Assembly (NCBI GenBank): GCA_002731275.1
Contig: PCBK01000082.1
Span: 1 to 64,000 of the forward strand
Length of the DNA stretch: 64,000 bases
DNA from: Deltaproteobacteria bacterium
Lineage (GTDB): Bacteria > Myxococcota_C > UBA6777
Direction: 5' to 3'
Shown here: in pieces, positions 39,284 through 52,321 of the stretch
Numbering within the stretch: the stretch's first letter is position 1
Layout: each line of letters opens with the position of its first letter
Made by a program: the position numbers and the translations under genes
The notes under the pieces: model-generated
The model's database searches: none
Told to the model about the DNA's origin: nothing
The model's input: the letters and a program-made list of their open reading frames with translations, nothing else

Positions 39284-41317
39284 TTAGCGTGCGACACCGT
39301 TGCGACGTGCGTTTTGCCTGACCATTCCCTCACAAGCTTTGCTCTGGTGGACTGGGAAGATCGTGCGTTTGGCACCTCTTGGACAACTCCAGCACGTCCC
39401 ACCTCTGATGGGATCGAAGAATGTTCCTCTCGCACAACCACCCTTTTTACGGAAGCTCGCGCGAGCATATCGGAGTGTATTTCTGCGCATCGAGCGAACA
39501 CAAGCCTTTGTACTTGTCACAGCTGCGGCTGTGCGCTTCGAGCCTGCCGGACAACTCCAACACGTTCCGCCTCGAATCAGGTCAAAGAACGTCCCTCTGG
39601 CGCAACCACTCTTCTTGTGATGAGTCGCACGGCGATAGCGGGCTTTGAAGATACTACCAGAGACACATGCTTTTGCGCTCGCGACGGAGAACACGGTACG
39701 TTTGGTCCCACGTGGACAGCTCCAACACGTCCCACCTCGGATCAGGTCAAAGAATGTCCCTCGCGGACAGCCACTCTTCTTGTGGTATGTCGCGCGGAGA
39801 TGTTGCAGTTGGACTGTGTTGCTTCCAGAAGTGCAGGCTTTTGTACTTGTGACAGGATACACAGTGCGCTTCATACCTCGCGGACAGCTCCAGCACGTTC
39901 CGCCTCGAATGGGATCGAAGAAGGTCCCTCTTGGACAGCTCGTCGGCAACAGTTTCCCTGATCCGTGGTAACGAGCTTTCATCCAGGCTTTTTTGCTACA
40001 GCGGAGTTTGTTTCTCTTGTCATGAGCGAATCCTGCGGGACATGCCCAGCAAACATTTCTTTTGTCTTTGTAATTGCCGTGGGGGCAGAGCTTACCGCAG
40101 ACTTTGGGACCACCTACGCACTTTAAGACGGAGGCTGGGATATGTCGCACAAGGCTACCGACAAACTGGCGAACATCGGCGGCGATCATACTAAACAAGC
40201 GATTGTAGTGGGGGCGCATCACACGGGTAAACAAATCCCAGATGAGCAAGTTCCCTGTCACTGAACAGGTCACATACACGATTGGATAGGAGACTGCACC
40301 AATCCCTGCGGTCGCAGCAGCCAACGTTGTAGCCACAGACGCCGAAGCAGAGTGGGACATCGGCTCGATCACCGTCAAATCGAGCACAATGGCGACAAAT
40401 TTTGCGAGGATCTTAAACGAGGCATCACGAGTCGAGGTTGTCAACTCGTTGCGAAGACAAGTGCGTTTGGGTTCGCCTGTGTACTTCCAGCAATTGTATG
40501 TGACCTTCAAGGCTTCAAACGCGATGATCCGTAAAGCTGCAAATGCGGCGGCTTTGGCGAAGGCTTTTGTCAGCCCTGCGGCTGATTTTTCCGTGTACAT
40601 CAGGCGTTTGATCTGGCTCTTGCTCTTGCCGCTCTTCAATAACTTGAGCAGCTTGGCTTTCATCTTGGGCTTCATGAAGTTCTTGGCTTTTTGGATCTTC
40701 TTTTTGGCCAACATCAAGATCTTCTTCGAGATCTTTCCTGCGCGGCTCTTGTAGAACTTCTTGGCCTCGATCGTCGCCTTGCGTTTCAGATCTTTGATGC
40801 GCTTGTCAAAGCGGACTTTCGTCAGGTTGGTGATCTGTCCACGTAATTTTCGGATGGTTCCGTCGAATTTACGAACCTCTCGCTCTACAAAGGACTTCAG
40901 CTTTCGAAACGCCTTTTTCAGACCACCAATGGCTACGTGTCCAGCCGACAAGACGGGCTTGTACTTGCCGTTGATGAACACCGCCTCTTTCCCTCTGTAG
41001 AGTTTGACACAGTGGAGGTCATATCGACGTGTGATGATGTTGCGCTTCTTTTTGCAAGTACCTTTTCGCAAGCGCGCGAGCAGTTGGTTTTTTCGAACGA
41101 TATACTGACGCAGTTGTCTGTTGCTGTTGACGGCATCGCGGATTTTTTTGGCCCGCGCTTGTTGGATCAGACGTTGTACTTGTTGTGGAGTGTATTTGGG
41201 ACGCGCTTCTGCTTTGTCTGCAAAGGACGGCAACACGAAAAACAACGCCAGTAGACCCATGAGGAATCTACTTTTGGGGATGTGCTTGCGCGCACAATGA
41301 ATGATGAATGAATGCAT
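39284..41317 (-). CDS. Secreted basic protein with five cysteine-containing repeats
   Basis: ATG 41317 is set by aggagaac. The 677-residue product has a signal peptide (ending FADKAEA), then about 200 residues rich in Lys/Arg helices (KKAFRKLKSFVEREVRKF). A less polar stretch of about 170 residues contains hydrophobic segments (LAAATAGIGAVSYPIVYV). The C-terminal 260 residues hold five repeats: one diverged (CPHGNYKDKRNVCWACPAG) and four nearly identical copies of about 52 residues beginning C(P/A)RGTFFDxIRGGTCWSCP, with a fourth Cys in (S)KAC. The repeats resemble Cys-rich surface motifs with two likely disulfides. No family recognised. It neighbours two other Cys-rich exported proteins. Confidence 0.75.
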   Translation of the reverse strand: MHSFIIHCARKHIPKSRFLMGLLALFFVLPSFADKAEARPKYTPQQVQRLIQQARAKKIRDAVNSNRQLRQYIVRKNQLLARLRKGTCKKKRNIITRRYDLHCVKLYRGKEAVFINGKYKPVLSAGHVAIGGLKKAFRKLKSFVEREVRKFDGTIRKLRGQITNLTKVRFDKRIKDLKRKATIEAKKFYKSRAGKISKKILMLAKKKIQKAKNFMKPKMKAKLLKLLKSGKSKSQIKRLMYTEKSAAGLTKAFAKAAAFAALRIIAFEALKVTYNCWKYTGEPKRTCLRNELTTSTRDASFKILAKFVAIVLDLTVIEPMSHSASASVATTLAAATAGIGAVSYPIVYVTCSVTGNLLIWDLFTRVMRPHYNRLFSMIAADVRQFVGSLVRHIPASVLKCVGGPKVCGKLCPHGNYKDKRNVCWACPAGFAHDKRNKLRCSKKAWMKARYHGSGKLLPTSCPRGTFFDPIRGGTCWSCPRGMKRTVYPVTSTKACTSGSNTVQLQHLRATYHKKSGCPRGTFFDLIRGGTCWSCPRGTKRTVFSVASAKACVSGSIFKARYRRATHHKKSGCARGTFFDLIRGGTCWSCPAGSKRTAAAVTSTKACVRSMRRNTLRYARASFRKKGGCARGTFFDPIRGGTCWSCPRGAKRTIFPVHQSKACEGMVRQNARRNGVAR

Positions 41318-41533
41318 GATTGTTCTCCTACAGGTTTGGAAAATGAACACATTGGATGATGTCCAAAGCTTACGGAGTTCGCATGAATCATTCAATCAAC
41401 AGAACGGCCAAAGTGCCCTATGAAAATGTCCAAAACGATATCGAAAAAATTCGAGATCGGATCTTCGCGAATTGTATTTTTTGGGAGTTGTGTGATGGAT
41501 GAGAGCGGTGAGGAGGGCTGAACGGGTGATATA

Positions 41534-43304: not shown

Positions 43305-44693
43305 TTGAGCAAACTATACAAACAAACATCCCTTACCCCGCCTTCTTTTGGGTCATACCAACGCTTTTTGATATTCCACCCGATACAAAACCACCTGCAA
43401 AGATACAAACATTTCCTCCTGTGTTGTGGTCTGTTGTACGCTCTCATGCTGTCTCTCCTCCCTTCCCTCGTCCACGCAGAAGGTCCAGACGCACATAAAA
43501 CAACGACCCTCACAGAGGGCACACAACACACGACGACGCGACCAACACAGTCACAGAGTCCACCTGCCCTTCAACGAGCTCTTAAACGGGCCCTTGGGGC
43601 TTCGGACGAACGAAAAAAATGTCCTGAGGGGAAGCTCTGTATCCCCCTTCACCAGGGAGGATGTGTTTGTGTTCCCCTGACATCCTCAAAACACACTGCG
43701 GTCCCTCCAGCCAAGCAATCGTGGTACAAAGAGGCGTATGATTGGTCGGCGGAGCTGTTTCGTTTTTACTTTTTGGATGCGGGTTCGGGGATCTTTTGGA
43801 TGTACATCCTCGCGCACTTTTTGCTCGGTGGGATCTACTTCTCCTTTTACCTTTCACCGACACGTAGCTTCTCACCGCGCAAGATCTGGTCTTATGTTTT
43901 CCCGGCCCGGATCTACTTCAGTCGGCAATTTGTCAACGATGCCTGTATTACGCTGCTCAACCAGCTCTACCCTGTCGCGTTATTTTTGAGCCTTGAGGTG
44001 TACTCCAACACTGTCGGTGCGTTCATTCGAAAGTCGATGCTCTCGACATTTGGTTCTCCATCCTTTGAAGTCACAGGGACGACTGCGGCGATCATCTTCA
44101 CCATCTTTGTGTTGCTCGCGAGTGATTTGAGCGCCTTCCTCGCCCACACACTTCAACACAGAGTCCCCTTCTTGTGGGAATTTCATAAGGTTCATCATTC
44201 GGCAGAGACGTTGACTCCATTGACCAACAATCGCAGCCACCCCGTCGACTTGCTGTTGATCGGGAACATGACAGGTCTTGTCATCGGCGTGATCGTCGGT
44301 ATCGCTGGTTTTCTGTCCAACAACAAGCTCGACGAGACGACCATCACGTGGATCAACATTCTCGTCATCTCCGGCCCCCTCATCCTCGAAAACTTTCAGC
44401 ACTCCCACATCCCTATCTCATTTGGTCCATTGGATCATGTGATCATGAGCCCCATTCTGCATCAGATCCACCACAGCAAGGCCCCCGAACACCTCGACTC
44501 CAACATGGCGCAGATCTTTTCGTTTTGGGATCGGATGACAGGTACGCTCGTCATGCCCAAAAAAGGAGAGACGTTGGTCTTTGGGCTCGATGATGAATAC
44601 GACGATGATTATGGGAAGTTGTGGGTGATCTATTTTATGCCTTTTGTCAGGGCTTTTCAGCTCGTTGTGCGGGCCTTCAAGAGGACTCAGTGA
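43305..44693 (+). CDS. Sterol desaturase / fatty acid hydroxylase family protein with N-terminal extension
   Basis: TTG 43305 is used because gggagaa lies just upstream; the true start is uncertain. The core (about 140-460) is a di-iron membrane hydroxylase with the three histidine clusters HTLQH, HKVHH and HQIHH, plus several membrane helices. The product should hydroxylate or desaturate a lipid. Unusually, it begins with an extra 130-residue part containing a hydrophobic segment (FLLCCGLLYALMLSLLPSLVHA) and a Cys-rich stretch (CPEGKLCIPLHQGGCVCVP) that looks exported. The stop overlaps the TonB receptor gene end by 7 bases. Confidence 0.83.
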   Translation: MSKLYKQTSLTPPSFGSYQRFLIFHPIQNHLQRYKHFLLCCGLLYALMLSLLPSLVHAEGPDAHKTTTLTEGTQHTTTRPTQSQSPPALQRALKRALGASDERKKCPEGKLCIPLHQGGCVCVPLTSSKHTAVPPAKQSWYKEAYDWSAELFRFYFLDAGSGIFWMYILAHFLLGGIYFSFYLSPTRSFSPRKIWSYVFPARIYFSRQFVNDACITLLNQLYPVALFLSLEVYSNTVGAFIRKSMLSTFGSPSFEVTGTTAAIIFTIFVLLASDLSAFLAHTLQHRVPFLWEFHKVHHSAETLTPLTNNRSHPVDLLLIGNMTGLVIGVIVGIAGFLSNNKLDETTITWINILVISGPLILENFQHSHIPISFGPLDHVIMSPILHQIHHSKAPEHLDSNMAQIFSFWDRMTGTLVMPKKGETLVFGLDDEYDDDYGKLWVIYFMPFVRAFQLVVRAFKRTQ

Positions 44694-46699
44694 CGAAAAC
44701 GCAGCCCCACGTAAAAGGTGCGTGGACGGATGGGGAGGAAGCGGGGATCGCCAGCGTTCAAGATGTTGCGCAGAGACAAAAAGACCTCAAACTTTTTCCT
44801 CCAAAATGTATAGCTGAGTCGAGCATGGAGAAGTGCGTAGGCGTCTGCATCGACACGTTCGAGCGCACCATCTCCATTGAGATCCTGTTCAAAGGGTCGC
44901 ACACCGACAAATGTCCCACTTAACGTCAGCCGCAGCCCAAGCCCTGGATGTTGTGCAAACAAGCTGACATTTCCCCGGTGTGGAGTGCGGCCAAGGAGCG
45001 CTTGCTTCGTCGACAGATCTTCGCTCATCAAGAACGCATACCCCAACGTCAACTGGATATATTTTTGGTAGGAGAACGCGATCTGTGTCTCCACACCTTG
45101 CGTCACTGCGGCGTCGATGTTTCGGTAGGTAATCCGCAGCGGCTCTCCCGCACCTGTCGGGATCGTCTCCGTGTTGATCAGGTTCTCCAAGTCGTTGCGG
45201 TAGAAGTTAGCCCGAAAGGTCAACCACGATGTCCCCAACCATTCAACGCCTACTTGGAGACTCTTTGAAAGCTCCGGTTTCAGATCGTGGTTGCCTATGA
45301 CGACGTAGCCGGCGGCACCATTTTCGAATTGCAGGTACAGCTCCTTGAAGTCTGGAGCACGAAATCCCCACCCATAGCTGGCGCGGATCGCCAGTCCCTT
45401 CACAGGATCGATGCGCAAAGACATCTTTGGGTTGACGGTTGGACCAAATTGCGTGTCGTACCCCACCCTGACGCCAGGGACGAGGCTGATACGAATGGGT
45501 TTGAGCAACATCCACTCGTACTGCGCAAACATCGCACCACGAAAGCGGTGTGCGTAGGCTTCTTGCAGACGATCAGTCTCTAGATGTTCGTACAGCGCGT
45601 CCAGACCGACAGAGATGAAGTGAGAAGAGCCCACGCCCAGGTCGAGCTGCGCGACACTCTGACCGATCCAGTCGTGTGTCTTCTGAAATGTCGGTGGGTC
45701 GACACCACCCCGATGGGAGTAGAGAAATTGATCCCGAAAGTACGCCATGCTGTTTTTCCAACGCAGCCGCAACATCAGGTCTTCATTGGCCAACAACAAG
45801 GAGTTTAAAAAGAACGACGCAGTTGACGTCTCTGTGCGGTTTTTGCGGTCGTAAACGGCACCAACGCTGTTGTTGTCGATGCCGGCTCGATCGCGTAGTT
45901 GGTAATCGCCACGTAGTGAGATGTGTGTCCGAGGTGAGATGCGATACGACGTCCGTCCAGAGACCTGGAAGAAATGATCGTCACTGCCGGTTGTTCCCGG
46001 GTCAGAAGGGTCGAGATCCCAGGCATCATAACGCAACCACGTCAGCGATAATTGGCCACTCCATCCTTTCCAGTAAAAGCCGGTGCTGCCGTTGGCGTCC
46101 ATCAGGTGACCATCACCGTGTCCATAACGACCGGACAGGTTGAGAAAGAAGGGGCGTTTGTTCTTTCGAGTGATGATGTTGACGACACCACCGATCGCAT
46201 CGGAACCATACAGCGCAGACGTCGCGCCTTTGACGATCTCGACACGTTCGATCTGTTCGAGGGGGAAGCGGTCGAGATCCAAGATTCCGCGTTGTCGACC
46301 AGACAGTCGTTGTCCATCGACGAGTATCAAGATGTACTTGCTGTTGAGGCCTTGCAATTGAAGACCGGTCCCGCCGCCAGCGACGGAGGTGACCTGGATA
46401 CCGAGCTGTGTTTCGAGCAGCTCACTCAGTCGTCGCGCAGGTGTACGTAGGATCTGCTGACGTGTGATGACCTCAGTTTGGTTGACTGTGTCTTTTAATC
46501 GCCGCCCTCTTCGGCTCCCTGTTACGACGATGGTGTCGAGATGTTGCGATGTCAAAGAGGCTCGCTTTTTCGGTTTTGGACGGATACTGACGGGTCGCTT
46601 TTTTGGCTTGTCCTCTGTTACCTTTTCGGCCCAAGCGGGCGTGGCAAGACAAAGCAAACTGAGCCCACACCAGCACCACCATCTCTTTGCCGGAGACAT
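44687..46699 (-). CDS. TonB-dependent outer-membrane receptor, probably heme
   Basis: ATG 46699 is preferred over GTG 46705. The 670-residue protein has a signal peptide (ending TPAWA), a TonB-box-like segment (LDTIVVTGSR), a plug domain (LSELLETQLGIQV, GATSALYGSDAIGGVVNIITRK) and a 22-strand barrel ending in a final aromatic-type strand (FYVGLRFRH). The barrel carries GFRAPDFKELYL and GNHDLKPE, like the FRAP and NPDL boxes typical of heme receptors. Position 27 bases downstream of the HmuY-like gene and in line with hmuTUV supports heme as ligand. It is the last gene of the leftward run. Confidence 0.9.
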   Translation of the reverse strand: MSPAKRWWCWCGLSLLCLATPAWAEKVTEDKPKKRPVSIRPKPKKRASLTSQHLDTIVVTGSRRGRRLKDTVNQTEVITRQQILRTPARRLSELLETQLGIQVTSVAGGGTGLQLQGLNSKYILILVDGQRLSGRQRGILDLDRFPLEQIERVEIVKGATSALYGSDAIGGVVNIITRKNKRPFFLNLSGRYGHGDGHLMDANGSTGFYWKGWSGQLSLTWLRYDAWDLDPSDPGTTGSDDHFFQVSGRTSYRISPRTHISLRGDYQLRDRAGIDNNSVGAVYDRKNRTETSTASFFLNSLLLANEDLMLRLRWKNSMAYFRDQFLYSHRGGVDPPTFQKTHDWIGQSVAQLDLGVGSSHFISVGLDALYEHLETDRLQEAYAHRFRGAMFAQYEWMLLKPIRISLVPGVRVGYDTQFGPTVNPKMSLRIDPVKGLAIRASYGWGFRAPDFKELYLQFENGAAGYVVIGNHDLKPELSKSLQVGVEWLGTSWLTFRANFYRNDLENLINTETIPTGAGEPLRITYRNIDAAVTQGVETQIAFSYQKYIQLTLGYAFLMSEDLSTKQALLGRTPHRGNVSLFAQHPGLGLRLTLSGTFVGVRPFEQDLNGDGALERVDADAYALLHARLSYTFWRKKFEVFLSLRNILNAGDPRFLPIRPRTFYVGLRFRH

Positions 46700-46726
46700 A
46701 TTCACACCTGCTCGTGTCGCTGAAGA

Positions 46727-48418
46727 TTATTGGGGGGGATCGATTTTGGCCCACTTGAAGGTCGGATACCCCGACTTCTTTTCGTCATTGTAGTAGGACA
46801 AGATCTTCATCTTGTAGTAGTGACTGCCTTGTTTGAGTACATAGACCTGGTCTTTGGGCGCGAGTGTGTGGGTTGAGGGATCGTATTGGTACCATCCACC
46901 TTCGAGGTTGAAGACGAGGTCAGGCTCTGTCCCTTCGTCGCTTCCATCGACAGCATCCGTGACATAACCGTCTTTGGGGGCGGTCTTCAGCGCGTCAAAG
47001 TCCTCGCCTTTGAGGATCGCGACCTCGACCCCGCCTTTTCCGCTGATACCACCGTTGACTTTGATCTGAAAGCGTTGGAAGGTCAACGTCCACTCAGTTG
47101 AATCCTCAGGTGTTTTGGGGGTCACTTCGGCGTTTGTCTCGATGGAGTAGTAGACCCATGCCGTTTGATCACCTGAGTAGACCTGCACTTGCGTCACACC
47201 ATCGCCGAGATCTTTGGTGGTGACTTTGGGGCCTGTAGGCGTGTCAGGTTTCGGTTGCTTGATTTTTGCCCACTGAAAGGTCGGGTATGCCGGTTGATTT
47301 TGAACATCGTAGTACGATGTAAATTGTAGCTTGAAGTATTGTCCTTCAGCGCTTTTGAGCACGTAAACGCGGTCTCTTGGGGAGAGTGTATGTTTGACGG
47401 GATCGTAAGCGTACCAATTGTCTTGTGTCGCGAACGCGAGGTCTTTGTCATCTGTGACGTAACCATCCTTGGGTGCGTATTCGATCGCTTCGAACTTTTG
47501 TCCATCGAGGATCGCGAGCTGGACGTTCCCTTTGCCGCTGACACCACCGTTGACTTTGACAGAAGAGCGCTGGAAGGCGATGTCCCAATCGGTGGATTGA
47601 GTGGGCTCTTTGACTTCGATATCCCGCGCATATGAGAAGGAGAAGTAGACCCAGCTCTCCTTGTCTGTTGCGTCGACTTTGGTCTGTGTGACGCCATCAC
47701 CAAGGTCTTTGTTCTCCGTCTTGGCTTTGGGCGTGGTGGTCTCTTTTGGCGCTTTGATCTTGGCCCATTTGAGCGTCGGGAAGCCTGAGTTTCCATTTTT
47801 GTCGTAGTATCCGAGCATCATGACCTTGACGTACTCGCCTTTTGTGGTCTTTACGACGTAGACACGTTTGCGCGCAGAGAGCGTGTGGTCCGTAGGATTG
47901 TAAGCATACCATCCGTCCTGTACGAGGAAGGAGAAGTCGGGATCTTTGTCTTCATCGTCGCCATCTTCTTTGTCCGTCAGGTACCCCTCTTTGGGGGCGT
48001 ACTCGATCTCATCGAAGGTCTTGTCGTCGACGATCGCGACCTCGACCCCACCTTTTCCACTGACGCCGCTGTTGGACTTGATCTGAAAGCGTTGGAATCC
48101 AAGCTCCCAATCGTTGGACTGCATTGGGTCTGTGACCTCGACGGGGTTGTCTTTTGCGAAGGTGATGTAGATCCACTTTTCACTGTCTGATGAGTTGATT
48201 TGGAGCTGCGTCACCCCATCGCCGAGGTCTGTCGTTACGACACTCTCACCAGGTACGACACGGGTCTTGGGAGGACCATCTTGTGTCCCTCCGTCGCTGC
48301 TGTGGGTATGTTCCTCTCCCGAGACAAGCTCAGGCGCACAGGCACTCAGAAGGCTTCCGGTCCAGAGACCGAGGACGATAACGACAACAAAAGATACACG
48401 GGTGTATGTCATTCTCAT
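46727..48418 (-). CDS. hmuY: Lipoprotein with three tandem HmuY-like heme-binding domains
   Basis: ATG 48418 follows aagga. Signal peptide with lipobox LLSAC (23-27), so surface- or envelope-anchored. Three HmuY-like modules occupy about 63-221, 236-386 and 401-560. Each opens with DLGDGVTQ, then a W(I/V)Y strand, the DW(E/D)L/I..FQR and (V/I)SGKG motifs, a GW/NWYAY/QYDP..HTL segment and YV.(L/V)K, YYD/N and Y/FPT(F/L)(K/Q)WAKI. HmuY proteins capture heme and pass it to TonB receptors; single-domain forms are usual. Conserved His in each HTL (178, 343, 517) could be structural or a ligand. Only the second module lacks the acidic insert (DGDDEDKDPD). Confidence 0.88.
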   Translation of the reverse strand: MRMTYTRVSFVVVIVLGLWTGSLLSACAPELVSGEEHTHSSDGGTQDGPPKTRVVPGESVVTTDLGDGVTQLQINSSDSEKWIYITFAKDNPVEVTDPMQSNDWELGFQRFQIKSNSGVSGKGGVEVAIVDDKTFDEIEYAPKEGYLTDKEDGDDEDKDPDFSFLVQDGWYAYNPTDHTLSARKRVYVVKTTKGEYVKVMMLGYYDKNGNSGFPTLKWAKIKAPKETTTPKAKTENKDLGDGVTQTKVDATDKESWVYFSFSYARDIEVKEPTQSTDWDIAFQRSSVKVNGGVSGKGNVQLAILDGQKFEAIEYAPKDGYVTDDKDLAFATQDNWYAYDPVKHTLSPRDRVYVLKSAEGQYFKLQFTSYYDVQNQPAYPTFQWAKIKQPKPDTPTGPKVTTKDLGDGVTQVQVYSGDQTAWVYYSIETNAEVTPKTPEDSTEWTLTFQRFQIKVNGGISGKGGVEVAILKGEDFDALKTAPKDGYVTDAVDGSDEGTEPDLVFNLEGGWYQYDPSTHTLAPKDQVYVLKQGSHYYKMKILSYYNDEKKSGYPTFKWAKIDPPQ

Positions 48419-48710
48419 GGGAATTCCTTATAAAGTGTATACAATGGGGGAAACTGGCGGACAGCCCGACTGAGGAGGTGCTTTTTCCTTACAACCGTTG
48501 GAGGAGAGCGAGTCGATCGTCCAACGGCCTTAGGCTATTCCAAGTCAAAAAGTCGATTGTCAAAATGAGCCACGTAGAGCTTGTTGTTGGAGCTTCATGC
48601 AGTGTTCTTCGTCGTCGCAGTGGCGATGCCACGGCTCCTTCTCAGGCAAGACATGAGAACTCCATCACCTGCCCTCTCTCGTGGACTTTTTTCCTTGGAA
48701 GAGCCTAACA
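48419..48710. repeat. Hairpin-containing gap inside the heme locus
   Basis: This 292-base gap separates hugZ from the HmuY gene. It has an inverted repeat ccgttgg/ccaacgg (48495-48501 and 48521-48527), a 5-bp hairpin gtggc/gccac with loop gat (48620-48632) and tctca/tgaga around ggcaagaca (48640-48658). The last is close to a hairpin at 18914-18932 (cctca, ggcaaggca, tgagg). No gene is visible. It could hold a promoter or an internal attenuator for the hmuY-receptor pair. Confidence 0.5.
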
Positions 48711-49529
48711 TCAGGTTGTTTCGCCGAGGATTTCACGGGCTTTTTGTGCGAGCGCGACCAGCTCCTTGCGGACTTGGCCGGCGTCGCGCACTTCTTCGGA
48801 GAAAGACATACGGATAGTACGGCCTTTTCCTCCGACAACAGCGCGCATCTCAAAGCCAAATCGATCGACGACGTTCATCTCGATATCGGTGATGTCGTCT
48901 TCGACTTTCTCGAAGGCTTTGACATATGAGATCATGTTGTGTTTGTGATCTTCGTTCATGTGGGTGATGATGCCATTCGCGTGTTTCCACAAGGGATCGG
49001 GGTAGGACGTGTGATACTCTTCACCGGGGACCCAGCTCATGCGACCAAATCCACCGATATAGCGGACGCGATTGACGTGCAATCTGTAAAAGGCAAAGTC
49101 CGGAAAGTCGATGTAAAACGCCGACTCTGGGTGGACCTCAATGTACTTTTCTCTGTAGAGCGCGAGGCCATCTTCGACGCGCTTGGCCTCACCGAGGAAC
49201 GTCGCGCGAGACAGCGCGAGGGCATACCCTTGTCCAAAGCCCTCGGCGATCAACAGCGACACTCTGGGATCTTTACGAATGTTCTTGGTGTGTGCAGCCA
49301 TACCACTAATAAAGAAGACAAAGTCTCCGTCTTCCAGGGGCAACAACTCGACGATGGAGCCGTAGGGGGTGCCATCTTCGCGGTCGATCGTCGAGAGCAC
49401 ACCTTGGTGGCTTGCGATGGTCAGTGTGCGTGCGTAGTCACCGTGTGTTGGAAGCTCATGACCTTCTCGTGGGTCATACGTCGAGCGGTGGAGTTTTTCG
49501 TTGTCGTTGATCTCTTCTTGTTGCGTCAT
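48711..49529 (-). CDS. hugZ: HugZ/HutZ-type heme-handling protein (PNPOx-like plus DUF2470)
   Basis: ATG 49529 follows aaaggaac. The 272-residue cytoplasmic protein has a split-barrel pyridoxamine-phosphate-oxidase-like domain (about 30-160; TLTIASHQGVLSTI, DGDFVFFISGMAAHTKN, PRVSLLI). A DUF2470 domain follows (about 190-250; HMNEDHKHNMISY, VVDRFGFEMRAV). This is the architecture of HugZ/HutZ proteins, which bind and degrade or release heme. It lies between the ABC importer genes and the HmuY gene and fits as the cytoplasmic endpoint of this uptake route. Confidence 0.88.
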   Translation of the reverse strand: MTQQEEINDNEKLHRSTYDPREGHELPTHGDYARTLTIASHQGVLSTIDREDGTPYGSIVELLPLEDGDFVFFISGMAAHTKNIRKDPRVSLLIAEGFGQGYALALSRATFLGEAKRVEDGLALYREKYIEVHPESAFYIDFPDFAFYRLHVNRVRYIGGFGRMSWVPGEEYHTSYPDPLWKHANGIITHMNEDHKHNMISYVKAFEKVEDDITDIEMNVVDRFGFEMRAVVGGKGRTIRMSFSEEVRDAGQVRKELVALAQKAREILGETT

Positions 49530-49572: not shown

Positions 49573-50385
49573 TCAGGTTTGTAGAGGTACGCGTTGCACC
49601 TCATGAGAGTAAAGTGGTCGGATAAAAGGACGTTTCTGTTCGTCGTAATGGACCCCAAAGGGGATCTGATAGATCTCTTCGAGCAGCTCTGCTTTGAGCA
49701 CTTGTCGGGGATGTCCACGCCGTTTGACGCGTCCTTCGTGAAGCAGCAGCATATCATCACAATATTGTGCGGCGAGGTTGAGATCGTGAAGTGCGGCGAT
49801 GACGAGCGCGCCAGCTTCAGCGAGCGCCTGACACAGCGCGAGGACGGAGACCTGGTGGCGTGGGTCGAGATGGTTTGTCGGCTCATCGAGCAGTAAAATA
49901 GGTGTCTGCTGTGCGAGCACGCGGGCGATATCGACGCGACAGGCTTCTCCACCAGACAGCGCGTTGTACATGCGCTCGGAGAATGCTGTGACTTGTGTCG
50001 TCTCCATTGCTTCTTTGGGGGTCATCTTTACAAATGAGGTCGTGTCTTGCTTTGCTGCCGTCAGTGGGTGGGCGTAGCGGGCAAACTGTACGACCTCTTC
50101 GACGGTAAACGGGAACTGAAGAGCGCTCTTTTGGTGCAAAAAGGCACGTTTTCTCGCGAGCTCTCGTTCCGAATACGCGCTGAGTTTTCGCGATGACAGA
50201 CATACCTCTCCTTTGGACGGCAGCAGATCACCTGAGAGTAGTCTCAATAAGGTGCTCTTTCCAGAACCGTTTGGGCCGACAAGTCCGACGAACTGACCCA
50301 GCTCAAAGCTCTGTTCAACCCCTTGAAGGATCCATCGCGTCGCCTGTTTGTGCCAGCGAAAATGGACGTCTCGAAGCTCAAGCAT
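49573..50385 (-). CDS. hmuV: Heme ABC transporter ATP-binding protein HmuV
   Basis: A 270-residue cytoplasmic ATPase with Walker A GPNGSGKST (37-45), ABC signature LSGGE (143-147), Walker B LLLDEPT (164-170) followed by NHLDPRHQ, and a switch His (ALHDLN). The C-terminus (HPRQVL, LLEEIYQIPFGV) is as in HmuV/FhuC-type proteins. The gene overlaps the permease gene by 8 bases, an operon hallmark. Heme is inferred from the neighbourhood; cobalamin or ferrisiderophore importers have similar ATPases. Confidence 0.93.
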   Translation of the reverse strand: MLELRDVHFRWHKQATRWILQGVEQSFELGQFVGLVGPNGSGKSTLLRLLSGDLLPSKGEVCLSSRKLSAYSERELARKRAFLHQKSALQFPFTVEEVVQFARYAHPLTAAKQDTTSFVKMTPKEAMETTQVTAFSERMYNALSGGEACRVDIARVLAQQTPILLLDEPTNHLDPRHQVSVLALCQALAEAGALVIAALHDLNLAAQYCDDMLLLHEGRVKRRGHPRQVLKAELLEEIYQIPFGVHYDEQKRPFIRPLYSHEVQRVPLQT

Positions 50386-51382
50386 AGAGCACCTTCCTTT
50401 TGTTGCGCATGAGCAACCACGTCAGGAATGGGGCACCGATCAAGGCCGTGACGATCCCGACAGGGAGCTCAGCAGGTGCGACAATGGTCCGCGCGAACAG
50501 ATCGGAGAGGACGACGAGTAATGCGCCACCAAGCGCTGAAGCGCGTATCAAAAAGCGATGTTCAGCGCTGCCAAACATCCGCAGCAAGTGAGGGACGACG
50601 AGCCCAACGAAGCCAATCCCCCCGGCTGCTGCGACTCCTACAGCGACACTGAGTGTGACACCGAGGATCATCTGTCTCTTGAGAGATTCGGTGTTGACGC
50701 CCATGTGGTATGCATCTGCTTCACCGAAGGTCATCAAGTTGAGCGGTTGTGCGAGTCTGAGCTGTAAGAAGATACCCAGCCCCCCAAACAGCGCGACTGT
50801 GAGGATTGTCCACCATGTCCCTCCTCCGAGTCCACCGAGCATCCAGAAGGTAAGACTGCGTAGCTGTTGATCGTCTGCGAGGAAGGTCAACAGGCCAATC
50901 CCAGCGCCCGCGAAGCTGTTGAGCGCGATCCCTGCGAGTAACAACGTCGCGACAAGTACGCGCCCGTCGACTTGAGAGAGACGCCACGCCATCCATGTGA
51001 CGAGCCATGCGCCTGCAAAGGCAGCCGCTGAGACGCCCCACATCCCAAAGAGCGAGATATGACCAGCGAACACGATCCACATCGCCGCGCCCATCCCGGC
51101 CCCGGCGTTGATGCCGAGTAAACCAGGGTCGGCGAGAGGGTTGCGAAAGAGTCCCTGGAGAGATGTCCCTGAGACTGCCAGGACAGCGCCGACAAGCGCT
51201 CCTAATAAGACACGTGGAAAGCGAATGTACATCAAGACCGTATATCCTTCGCTCTTGGTCCACAAGATCGAAGGGATCTTCCAAAATGGGATTGAGTACG
51301 CGCCTGTCCCCGCCGCCACAAACAACGTGACAAATAACAAACCAGACAACATCCAGAGGATGCTCTGTCTTCGTCCTTGCAT
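50378..51382 (-). CDS. hmuU: Heme ABC transporter permease HmuU (FecCD family)
   Basis: A 334-residue inner-membrane permease with about ten helices and FecCD-family motifs: SIPFWKIPSILW, RFPRVLLGALVGAVLAVSGT, NPLADPGLLGINAGAGMGA, and GGIGFVGLVVPHLLRM near 240. ATG 51382 is used (GTG 51388 possible). Placed 18 bases after hmuT and overlapping hmuV, it forms the transport channel of the import complex. Confidence 0.93.
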   Translation of the reverse strand: MQGRRQSILWMLSGLLFVTLFVAAGTGAYSIPFWKIPSILWTKSEGYTVLMYIRFPRVLLGALVGAVLAVSGTSLQGLFRNPLADPGLLGINAGAGMGAAMWIVFAGHISLFGMWGVSAAAFAGAWLVTWMAWRLSQVDGRVLVATLLLAGIALNSFAGAGIGLLTFLADDQQLRSLTFWMLGGLGGGTWWTILTVALFGGLGIFLQLRLAQPLNLMTFGEADAYHMGVNTESLKRQMILGVTLSVAVGVAAAGGIGFVGLVVPHLLRMFGSAEHRFLIRASALGGALLVVLSDLFARTIVAPAELPVGIVTALIGAPFLTWLLMRNKRKVLYA

Positions 51383-51400
51383 GGTCACACTCTCACTACG

Positions 51401-52321
51401 TCACTTGACGACGTGTGTCCCTTTGGCTTCGTAAATGCCACGAAAAAGCGCGAGCGCAGCTTCCCCACAACGTGGGCCAAATCCACCTAAGAACAGATCA
51501 TCCATCACGATAAATCGGTTCTTCTTCCCTGCAGGTGTCAAAGACAATCCGGGCATACGTTTGAAGACCTTGAGCCCTCCCATCGAGCGCAGGCCCTTTT
51601 TGAACAGCACAATCACGTCGGGACGAAGTGATAACAACGCCTCCGCTGAGACGGGTTTGACACCTCGAAACGTCGCGACATTCTTCGCCCCAGCGAGTGC
51701 AATCATCCCACTCACGGGGTTGCCCTTTCCAACGACAAAACGCACACGCGAGCCACGAACATACAAAAACGCGACGCGCGCCTTTTTGCCTTCTCTCTTC
51801 TTTTTGAAAGAGGTGAGTGTTTTGAGTGTCTGATTCATCGATGAGATAAGCGCTTCTGCCCTCTTCTCTTTTTTCAGGGCTTGACCAAGTGCGCGCAGCA
51901 TCTGTTGGCTCGTGGCGACATCTTTGGCTGTCTTTAATAATAATACCCGAATCCCCGCTGCTTTGATCTGTTTGAGTACAAAGTGTGGCTTTACACCTGT
52001 TGTACCAATCACCAGAGAAGGTTTGAGGCGTAAGATCCCTTCGGCGTTCAGACGGTGTTGGTAGCCGACTGTTGGGATCTTTTTGACTTGGGCTGGATAG
52101 TAGGAGGAGGTATCACGGCCAACGACGTGTTGTCCGACACCGAGGGCAAAGAGAGCCTCAGTGACTGGACCTGTGAGACTGACGATTCGATGAGCTGATG
52201 CTGTCTTTGTTGGACTGGCGAAGGCACCACTCGACCACAGCAATATGACGAGTATTCCCCCGACACCCCAGAGTTTTCTCCATTGACGCTTCTGGCTTTT
52301 ACATCGCATCCCGACACACAT
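51401..52321 (-). CDS. hmuT: Periplasmic heme-binding protein HmuT
   Basis: ATG 52321 is behind aaaggag. The 306-residue product has a signal sequence (LWGVGGILVILLWSSGAFAS). It has a cluster-A-9-like solute-binding fold: RIVSLTGPVTEALFALG, VGRDTSSYYP, IPTVGYQHRLNAEGILRLKP and LVIGTTGV, as in HmuT. Family heme ligands include a Tyr; Tyr in GYQH or SYYP is a candidate. First gene of the hmuTUV operon, with a striking inverted repeat just upstream. Confidence 0.9.
   Translation of the reverse strand: MCVGMRCKSQKRQWRKLWGVGGILVILLWSSGAFASPTKTASAHRIVSLTGPVTEALFALGVGQHVVGRDTSSYYPAQVKKIPTVGYQHRLNAEGILRLKPSLVIGTTGVKPHFVLKQIKAAGIRVLLLKTAKDVATSQQMLRALGQALKKEKRAEALISSMNQTLKTLTSFKKKREGKKARVAFLYVRGSRVRFVVGKGNPVSGMIALAGAKNVATFRGVKPVSAEALLSLRPDVIVLFKKGLRSMGGLKVFKRMPGLSLTPAGKKNRFIVMDDLFLGGFGPRCGEAALALFRGIYEAKGTHVVK

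Follow-up and report, generated by a model that had tools for sequence, protein, structure and literature searches.

The window (the whole 64,000-nucleotide stretch that was analysed) carries a gene for a lipoprotein with three HmuY modules in tandem, lying within a heme-uptake locus, and tandem HmuY proteins were found to be recurrent in the Myxococcota and in the phylum to which the window belongs. The protein is probably an outer-membrane-anchored, hemophore-like lipoprotein that captures heme or porphyrin in a multivalent manner and feeds it to the adjacent TonB receptor. This reading was built on the observed number of domains, the fold, the anchor sequence, the surrounding genes, the residues that are conserved and the recurrence of such proteins.

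The three-module lipoprotein and its locus

The first-pass annotation had proposed three HmuY modules of about 155 residues, similar yet different, on one lipid anchor beside a TonB receptor and hmuTUV-hugZ. The open reading frame was recovered, and its product matched the Pfam HmuY profile (PF14064, curated cut-off 27 bits) in three stretches with 217.7 bits (E 1.1e-64), each single module scoring 69-80 bits. A genome scan placed the three matches at 46751-47170, 47270-47662 and 47765-48184 (E 7e-22 to 2e-18), far past the level of chance. The modules, whose lengths are given in Table 1, were 49-51% identical to one another in pairwise comparisons, and both linkers were rich in Pro, Thr and Lys. 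HmuY was the only domain above its cut-off in the Pfam scan of this protein, in which no CR or NEAT domain was found. The lipobox with its Cys27 was present, as were the proposed neighbours by Pfam and NCBIfam, so that these parts of the annotation were confirmed. Membership of the HmuY family was indicated by the profile score, the lipoprotein signal and the adjacent TonB-dependent receptor, the last being seen likewise in relatives.

Table 1. Features of the heme-uptake locus and of the three-module HmuY protein, in window positions.
Feature	Positions	Strand	Basis
TonB-dependent receptor, HmuR-like, FRAP...NHDL box	44687..46705	-	PF00593, PF07715; motif
Three-module HmuY lipoprotein gene, 563 aa	46727..48418	-	ORF; PF14064 x3
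HmuY module 3, residues 403-559 (~157 residues)	46742..47212	-	Profile
Finger motif WYQYDPSTH, module 3	46868..46894	-	
Acidic loop VDGSDEGTEPD, module 3	46919..46951	-	
Linker 2, 16 residues	47213..47260	-	Translation
HmuY module 2, residues 238-386 (~149 residues), without acidic insert	47261..47707	-	Profile
Finger motif WYAYDPVKH, module 2	47390..47416	-	
Linker 1, 16 residues	47708..47755	-	Translation
HmuY module 1, residues 64-221 (~158 residues)	47756..48229	-	Pfam/genome scan; modelled
Finger motif WYAYNPTDH, module 1	47885..47911	-	
Acidic loop KEDGDDEDKDPD, module 1	47936..47971	-	
N-terminal tether, residues 28-63 (36 residues)	48230..48337	-	Translation; low-confidence region of model
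Lipoprotein signal peptide, lipobox LSAC (LLSAC), lipidated Cys27	48338..48418	-	Read from translation
HugZ-like heme oxygenase, 272 aa from likely internal ATG	48711..49529	-	PF13883, PF10615
hmuV, heme ABC transporter ATPase	49573..50385	-	NF010068, 264.5 bits (cut-off 261)
hmuU, FecCD-type permease	50378..51388	-	PF01032
hmuT, periplasmic binding protein	51401..52321	-	PF01497

The genes for the receptor, hmuY, hugZ, hmuV, hmuU and hmuT share one strand, with a gap of 292 bp between hugZ and hmuY. With a score of 66.7, the HugZ-like protein stayed short of the TIGR04109 cut-off of 240, and the TonB receptor fell under the cut-offs of every heme-receptor model in NCBIfam. No consensus Fur box was found when up to three mismatches were allowed; promoter-like sites were not more numerous than expected by chance, and none made a convincing promoter. 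Since the host genome encodes ALAD and ferrochelatase, the import of heme as a cofactor is not required, and heme that is taken up probably serves as a source of iron more than as an essential cofactor. A 703-aa protein with repeated Cys-rich units (GTFFDxIRGGTCWSCP) was also observed in the window (39284-41395, - strand), matching Pfam Ephrin_rec_like in three stretches.

A second HmuY match of the genome lay on contig C200, whose positions 1-28255 equal window positions 20390-48644 base for base (28,255 bp). Past this point the contig diverges at a short dispersed repeat, for which more than 20 partial matches were counted across the rest of the genome. Because the two sequences are identical right up to that repeat, a true second hmuY copy was rejected, and the C200 copy is most plausibly an assembly duplicate or branch. 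The repeat lies between hugZ and hmuY (window ~48644-48710; C200 28256-29020, or 8256-9020 of locus L019), and beyond it C200 continues with eight arrayed tRNA genes (Val, Thr, Ala, Leu, Val, His, Ala, Asp).

The AlphaFold model of module 1, made from 21 sequences (pLDDT 94.9, pTM 0.89), showed the HmuY beta fold. In VIA-align comparisons it reached Z 21.0 against holo-HmuY 3h8t (rmsd 2.6 Å, 156 residues), Z 20.1 against 8b6a and Z 14-21 across eight HmuY-family entries. Foldseek returned HmuY-family entries exclusively at E < 0.001, with 8b6a (HmuY-Bf-2; E 2.3e-11) first, followed by 6ewm and 3h8t (E 1.1e-10 for 3h8t), at a probability of 1.00. The sole sizeable match of module 1 outside the family was the DUF4466 protein 4ei0 of Parabacteroides merdae (Z 9.3, 121 residues), which, judged by this model, is possibly a distant relative of the HmuY fold. 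The full-chain model, made from six sequences, contained three domains with a pTM of 0.41 and low inter-domain confidence, and gave no reliable arrangement of them.

The putative heme pocket

The residues W42, R48, D87, W108, Y111 and H116 were invariant in 21 modules. In a larger set of 77 modules the Arg was kept in 71 of 76, the Tyr in 72 of 75 and the His in 67 of 75, and no further conserved His column was found in this set. In HmuY of P. gingivalis, heme is ligated by His134 of the thumb and His166 of the ring finger, and Arg79 forms a salt bridge with a heme propionate (PMC2671838). When the module profile was aligned to 3h8t, R48 fell on Arg79 and the thumb segment with His134 had no counterpart. 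The finger hairpin of all window modules carries W-Y-x-Y-x4-H, the Tyr of which aligns to Phe164 or His166 according to gap placement (a two-column ambiguity), and the His to Pro171. A ligand pair of the P. gingivalis His134/His166 type was not found in the window modules. His/His ligation is, however, no criterion of the whole HmuY family, since proteins with Met/Met, His/Met or no axial ligand exist (PMC12106395).

By analogy with the Tyr-axial/His-helper units of other hemophores, such as CR domains (PMC12494546), ligation by the Tyr, with the His as its helper, is favoured for the window modules. His ligation may occur instead, or the porphyrin may be held without iron coordination, as in HmuY-Bf-2, which binds heme and PPIX through tyrosines and does not coordinate the iron (PMC12106395), so that an axial ligand is possibly needless.

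We infer a surface-exposed protein whose modules would each bind a single heme or porphyrin within the HmuY finger cleft. The kept Arg would bind the propionate, and the conserved Tyr/His pair, close to the ring-finger tip, would ligate the iron in place of His134/His166. The ligand would first be handed to the adjacent TonB receptor, then to HmuTUV and finally to HugZ, which would liberate the iron. Three modules on one tether would provide a greater local capacity and capture rate; the first-pass annotation had suggested that several domains could increase avidity, carry different porphyrins or take heme from proteins of a host or prey. Arg, Tyr and His are conserved in each of the window modules, which speaks for function of all three. 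That a single module binds heme and the others merely raise it off the membrane is quite improbable: although some second or third modules of relatives (G075, G228 and G076) are devoid of the finger His, as such spacers might be, every invariant residue is kept in all three modules of the window.

The modules could also pack together with hemes buried between them, forming a one-chain mimic of the P. gingivalis HmuY tetramer, which arises from the dimer upon heme binding and in which hemes contact neighbouring protomers (PMC2671838). The recurrence of three-module chains would agree with such a covalent oligomer, but it appears unlikely in view of the short, polar linkers, the lack of confident packing in the full-length model and the missing thumb residues that make the tetramer contacts. 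Multivalent capture on a tethered chain is the preferred reading.

Spread and origin of tandem HmuY proteins

The phylum of the window is tiny and little known. Five of its genomes, all of one family, were analysed. The HmuY gene was found to encode three modules in the window, two in 'Deltaproteobacteria bacterium M3003' (G003; locus L036) and one in each of G002 and G004, and no HmuY was found in G001. HmuY was present in 104 of 195 Myxococcota genomes. With a module-based profile, three-module HmuY was detected in at least 13 of these 195, spanning at least eight genera, 13 being a lower bound, as module counts cover fetched loci. Three-module chains were seen in G075 and G076 (two loci each), G077, G132, G153, G155, G156, G157, G159, G172, G228 and G230. 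Citreicoccus inhibens (G032), whose phylum we take to be Myxococcota by established taxonomy, apparently has three modules in a gene cut at a contig break; Myxococcus dinghuensis, Myxococcales UBA1660 and Deltaproteobacteria HCUG1432-5 are named carriers of three modules. In many genomes the block receptor-hmuY-hmuT-hmuU-hmuV, at times with hugZ, was found around one-, two- and three-module HmuY genes, contig permitting. The other phyla surveyed, all outside the Bacteroidota, yielded single-module HmuY genes, none, or weak partial matches, and among them only G315 showed two pieces of a match within a single frame. In one large phylum of this survey (245 genomes) the HmuY matches listed were single, bar one weak two-piece match.

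The rarity implied by the first-pass annotation, for which HmuY is normally single-domain, is contradicted by these Myxococcota counts and by the 1, 1, 2, 3 series in the window's phylum. That annotation had named as counting against its proposal that three-domain HmuY proteins prove common and characterised; common they are in this lineage (Myxococcota), but the literature searched yielded no description of tandem HmuY, and such proteins are apparently unstudied. A 2009 paper had mentioned HmuY-HmuR pairs of Myxococcus xanthus, Stigmatella and Plesiocystis (PMC2671838), and the HmuY papers found treat single-domain proteins of oral and gut Bacteroidota. If tandem HmuY is a solution that recurs in myxobacteria and their neighbours, these proteins, with one to three modules, would form a natural series in which to study what drives surface hemophores to multivalency, and would provide a second possible scheme of heme ligation within one fold.

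Two MAGs carry separate neighbouring HmuY genes (L039 5660-6991, with one module each; L042 6716-8331, with one and two modules), possible intermediates between gene duplication and fusion. These split genes adjoin a receptor gene and hmuT, and two L042 modules have nearly no thumb loop. In the third module of the HmuY proteins of two relatives (L049 6769-8529 and L056 6256-7977), a Cys-rich insert (CYL..GHVCDCEMS...C.C) was observed before the finger motif.

A tree of 63 modules separated type A from type B with support of 99/98, and a reduced tree gave the same split at 100/100. Type A comprises all first modules and every module of the window and M. dinghuensis, and type B the second and third modules of other triples, plus a few singles. 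The order is mostly A-B-B in myxobacterial triples, being common to several Myxococcota families, and A-A-A in the window and M. dinghuensis. The window modules were 54-62% identical to their best type-A match and 32-38% to their best type-B match. Modules of the window's phylum clustered at 93/90 in the 63-module tree and were poorly resolved in the reduced one. Orthology of the window triple with the myxobacterial A-B-B triple is disfavoured by both trees and by the identities, although the AU tests run with the 63-module tree rejected neither this orthology (p 0.12-0.19) nor the alternative histories taken together (p 0.12-0.21). Judged by the mutual identity of its modules (84-88%), M. dinghuensis represents a recent triplication. 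The A-A-A and A-B-B types, the grouping of the window's phylum and this triplication together suggest that the triple-module HmuY arose repeatedly, in at least three separate expansions.

Drift of the module number by recombination between similar repeats, with no functional meaning, could account for the varying counts among four relatives of one family and for the near-identical modules of M. dinghuensis. For the window protein such neutral duplication is rather hard to credit, as its modules have diverged to about 50% identity with every conserved residue intact, and the A-B-B order has been maintained across several Myxococcota families.

The acidic insert followed the pattern given in the first-pass annotation, modules 1 (KEDGDDEDKDPD) and 3 (VDGSDEGTEPD) carrying it and module 2 lacking it. 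It occupies the thumb position, and a D..DG.D....PD-type motif was found in 17 of 37 type-A modules and in 0 of 33 of type B. Because an acidic loop stands at this site in each of the two G003 modules, loss from module 2 is favoured, and the insert is probably an ancestral, conserved type-A loop that modules 1 and 3 have kept, not one that they acquired. An EF-hand reading was rejected, the window loops having no DxDxDG; DADGDG, DQDGDG or DENADG occurred at the insert site only in the relatives in L039 and L042. Those DxDxDG-like loops hint that the site may bind metal, perhaps calcium. Modules that bind different ligands (heme in one, for instance, and a metal-free porphyrin or some other tetrapyrrole in the next) or that differ in affinity, with heme moving along the chain, would fit the loopless module 2, the joining of two deeply different module types in myxobacterial triples and the varying ligand preference among HmuY proteins (PMC12106395), but the identity of the putative pocket Arg, Tyr and His in all window modules makes this division of labour doubtful.

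A broader proposal, to which a low probability is given, is that the Myxococcota and the window's phylum hold a distinct HmuY branch. In it, the thumb would be replaced by an acidic, perhaps metal-binding loop, ligation would be by Tyr and His on one finger, and three-module chains would have evolved repeatedly, each a covalent and possibly cooperative counterpart of the oligomer that HmuY forms on binding heme.

Comparison with known systems

HmuY of Porphyromonas gingivalis (3h8t, 6ewm) resembles the window protein in its fold, its lipoprotein nature, the propionate Arg and the adjoining TonB receptor and ABC importer. It has one module instead of three and becomes multivalent through tetramer formation (PMC2671838). 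The His134 thumb is absent from the window modules, the His166 finger is replaced by a Y-x4-H finger, and a HugZ-like gene is part of the locus in the window. HmuY-Bf-2 (BfrB) of Bacteroides fragilis (8b6a) was the top match both in Foldseek and by profile (E 2.9e-27) and shares short pocket loops, but it is a single module without the conserved finger His.

The three-module HmuY proteins of the Myxococcota (Citreicoccus inhibens, Myxococcus dinghuensis, UBA1660, HCUG1432-5 and others) have the same architecture, with the receptor adjacent in nearly all and hmuTUV where the contig reaches. Most of them are A-B-B, whereas the window is A-A-A, and the expansions were apparently separate. The tandem hemophores of Gram-positive bacteria (HtaA, with two CR domains, and the NEAT proteins) likewise join several heme-binding beta domains in one chain, although their domains are structurally distinct and the window protein has HmuY alone by Pfam. 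The Tyr with a helper His in CR domains (PMC12494546) is similar to the finger pair proposed for the window modules.
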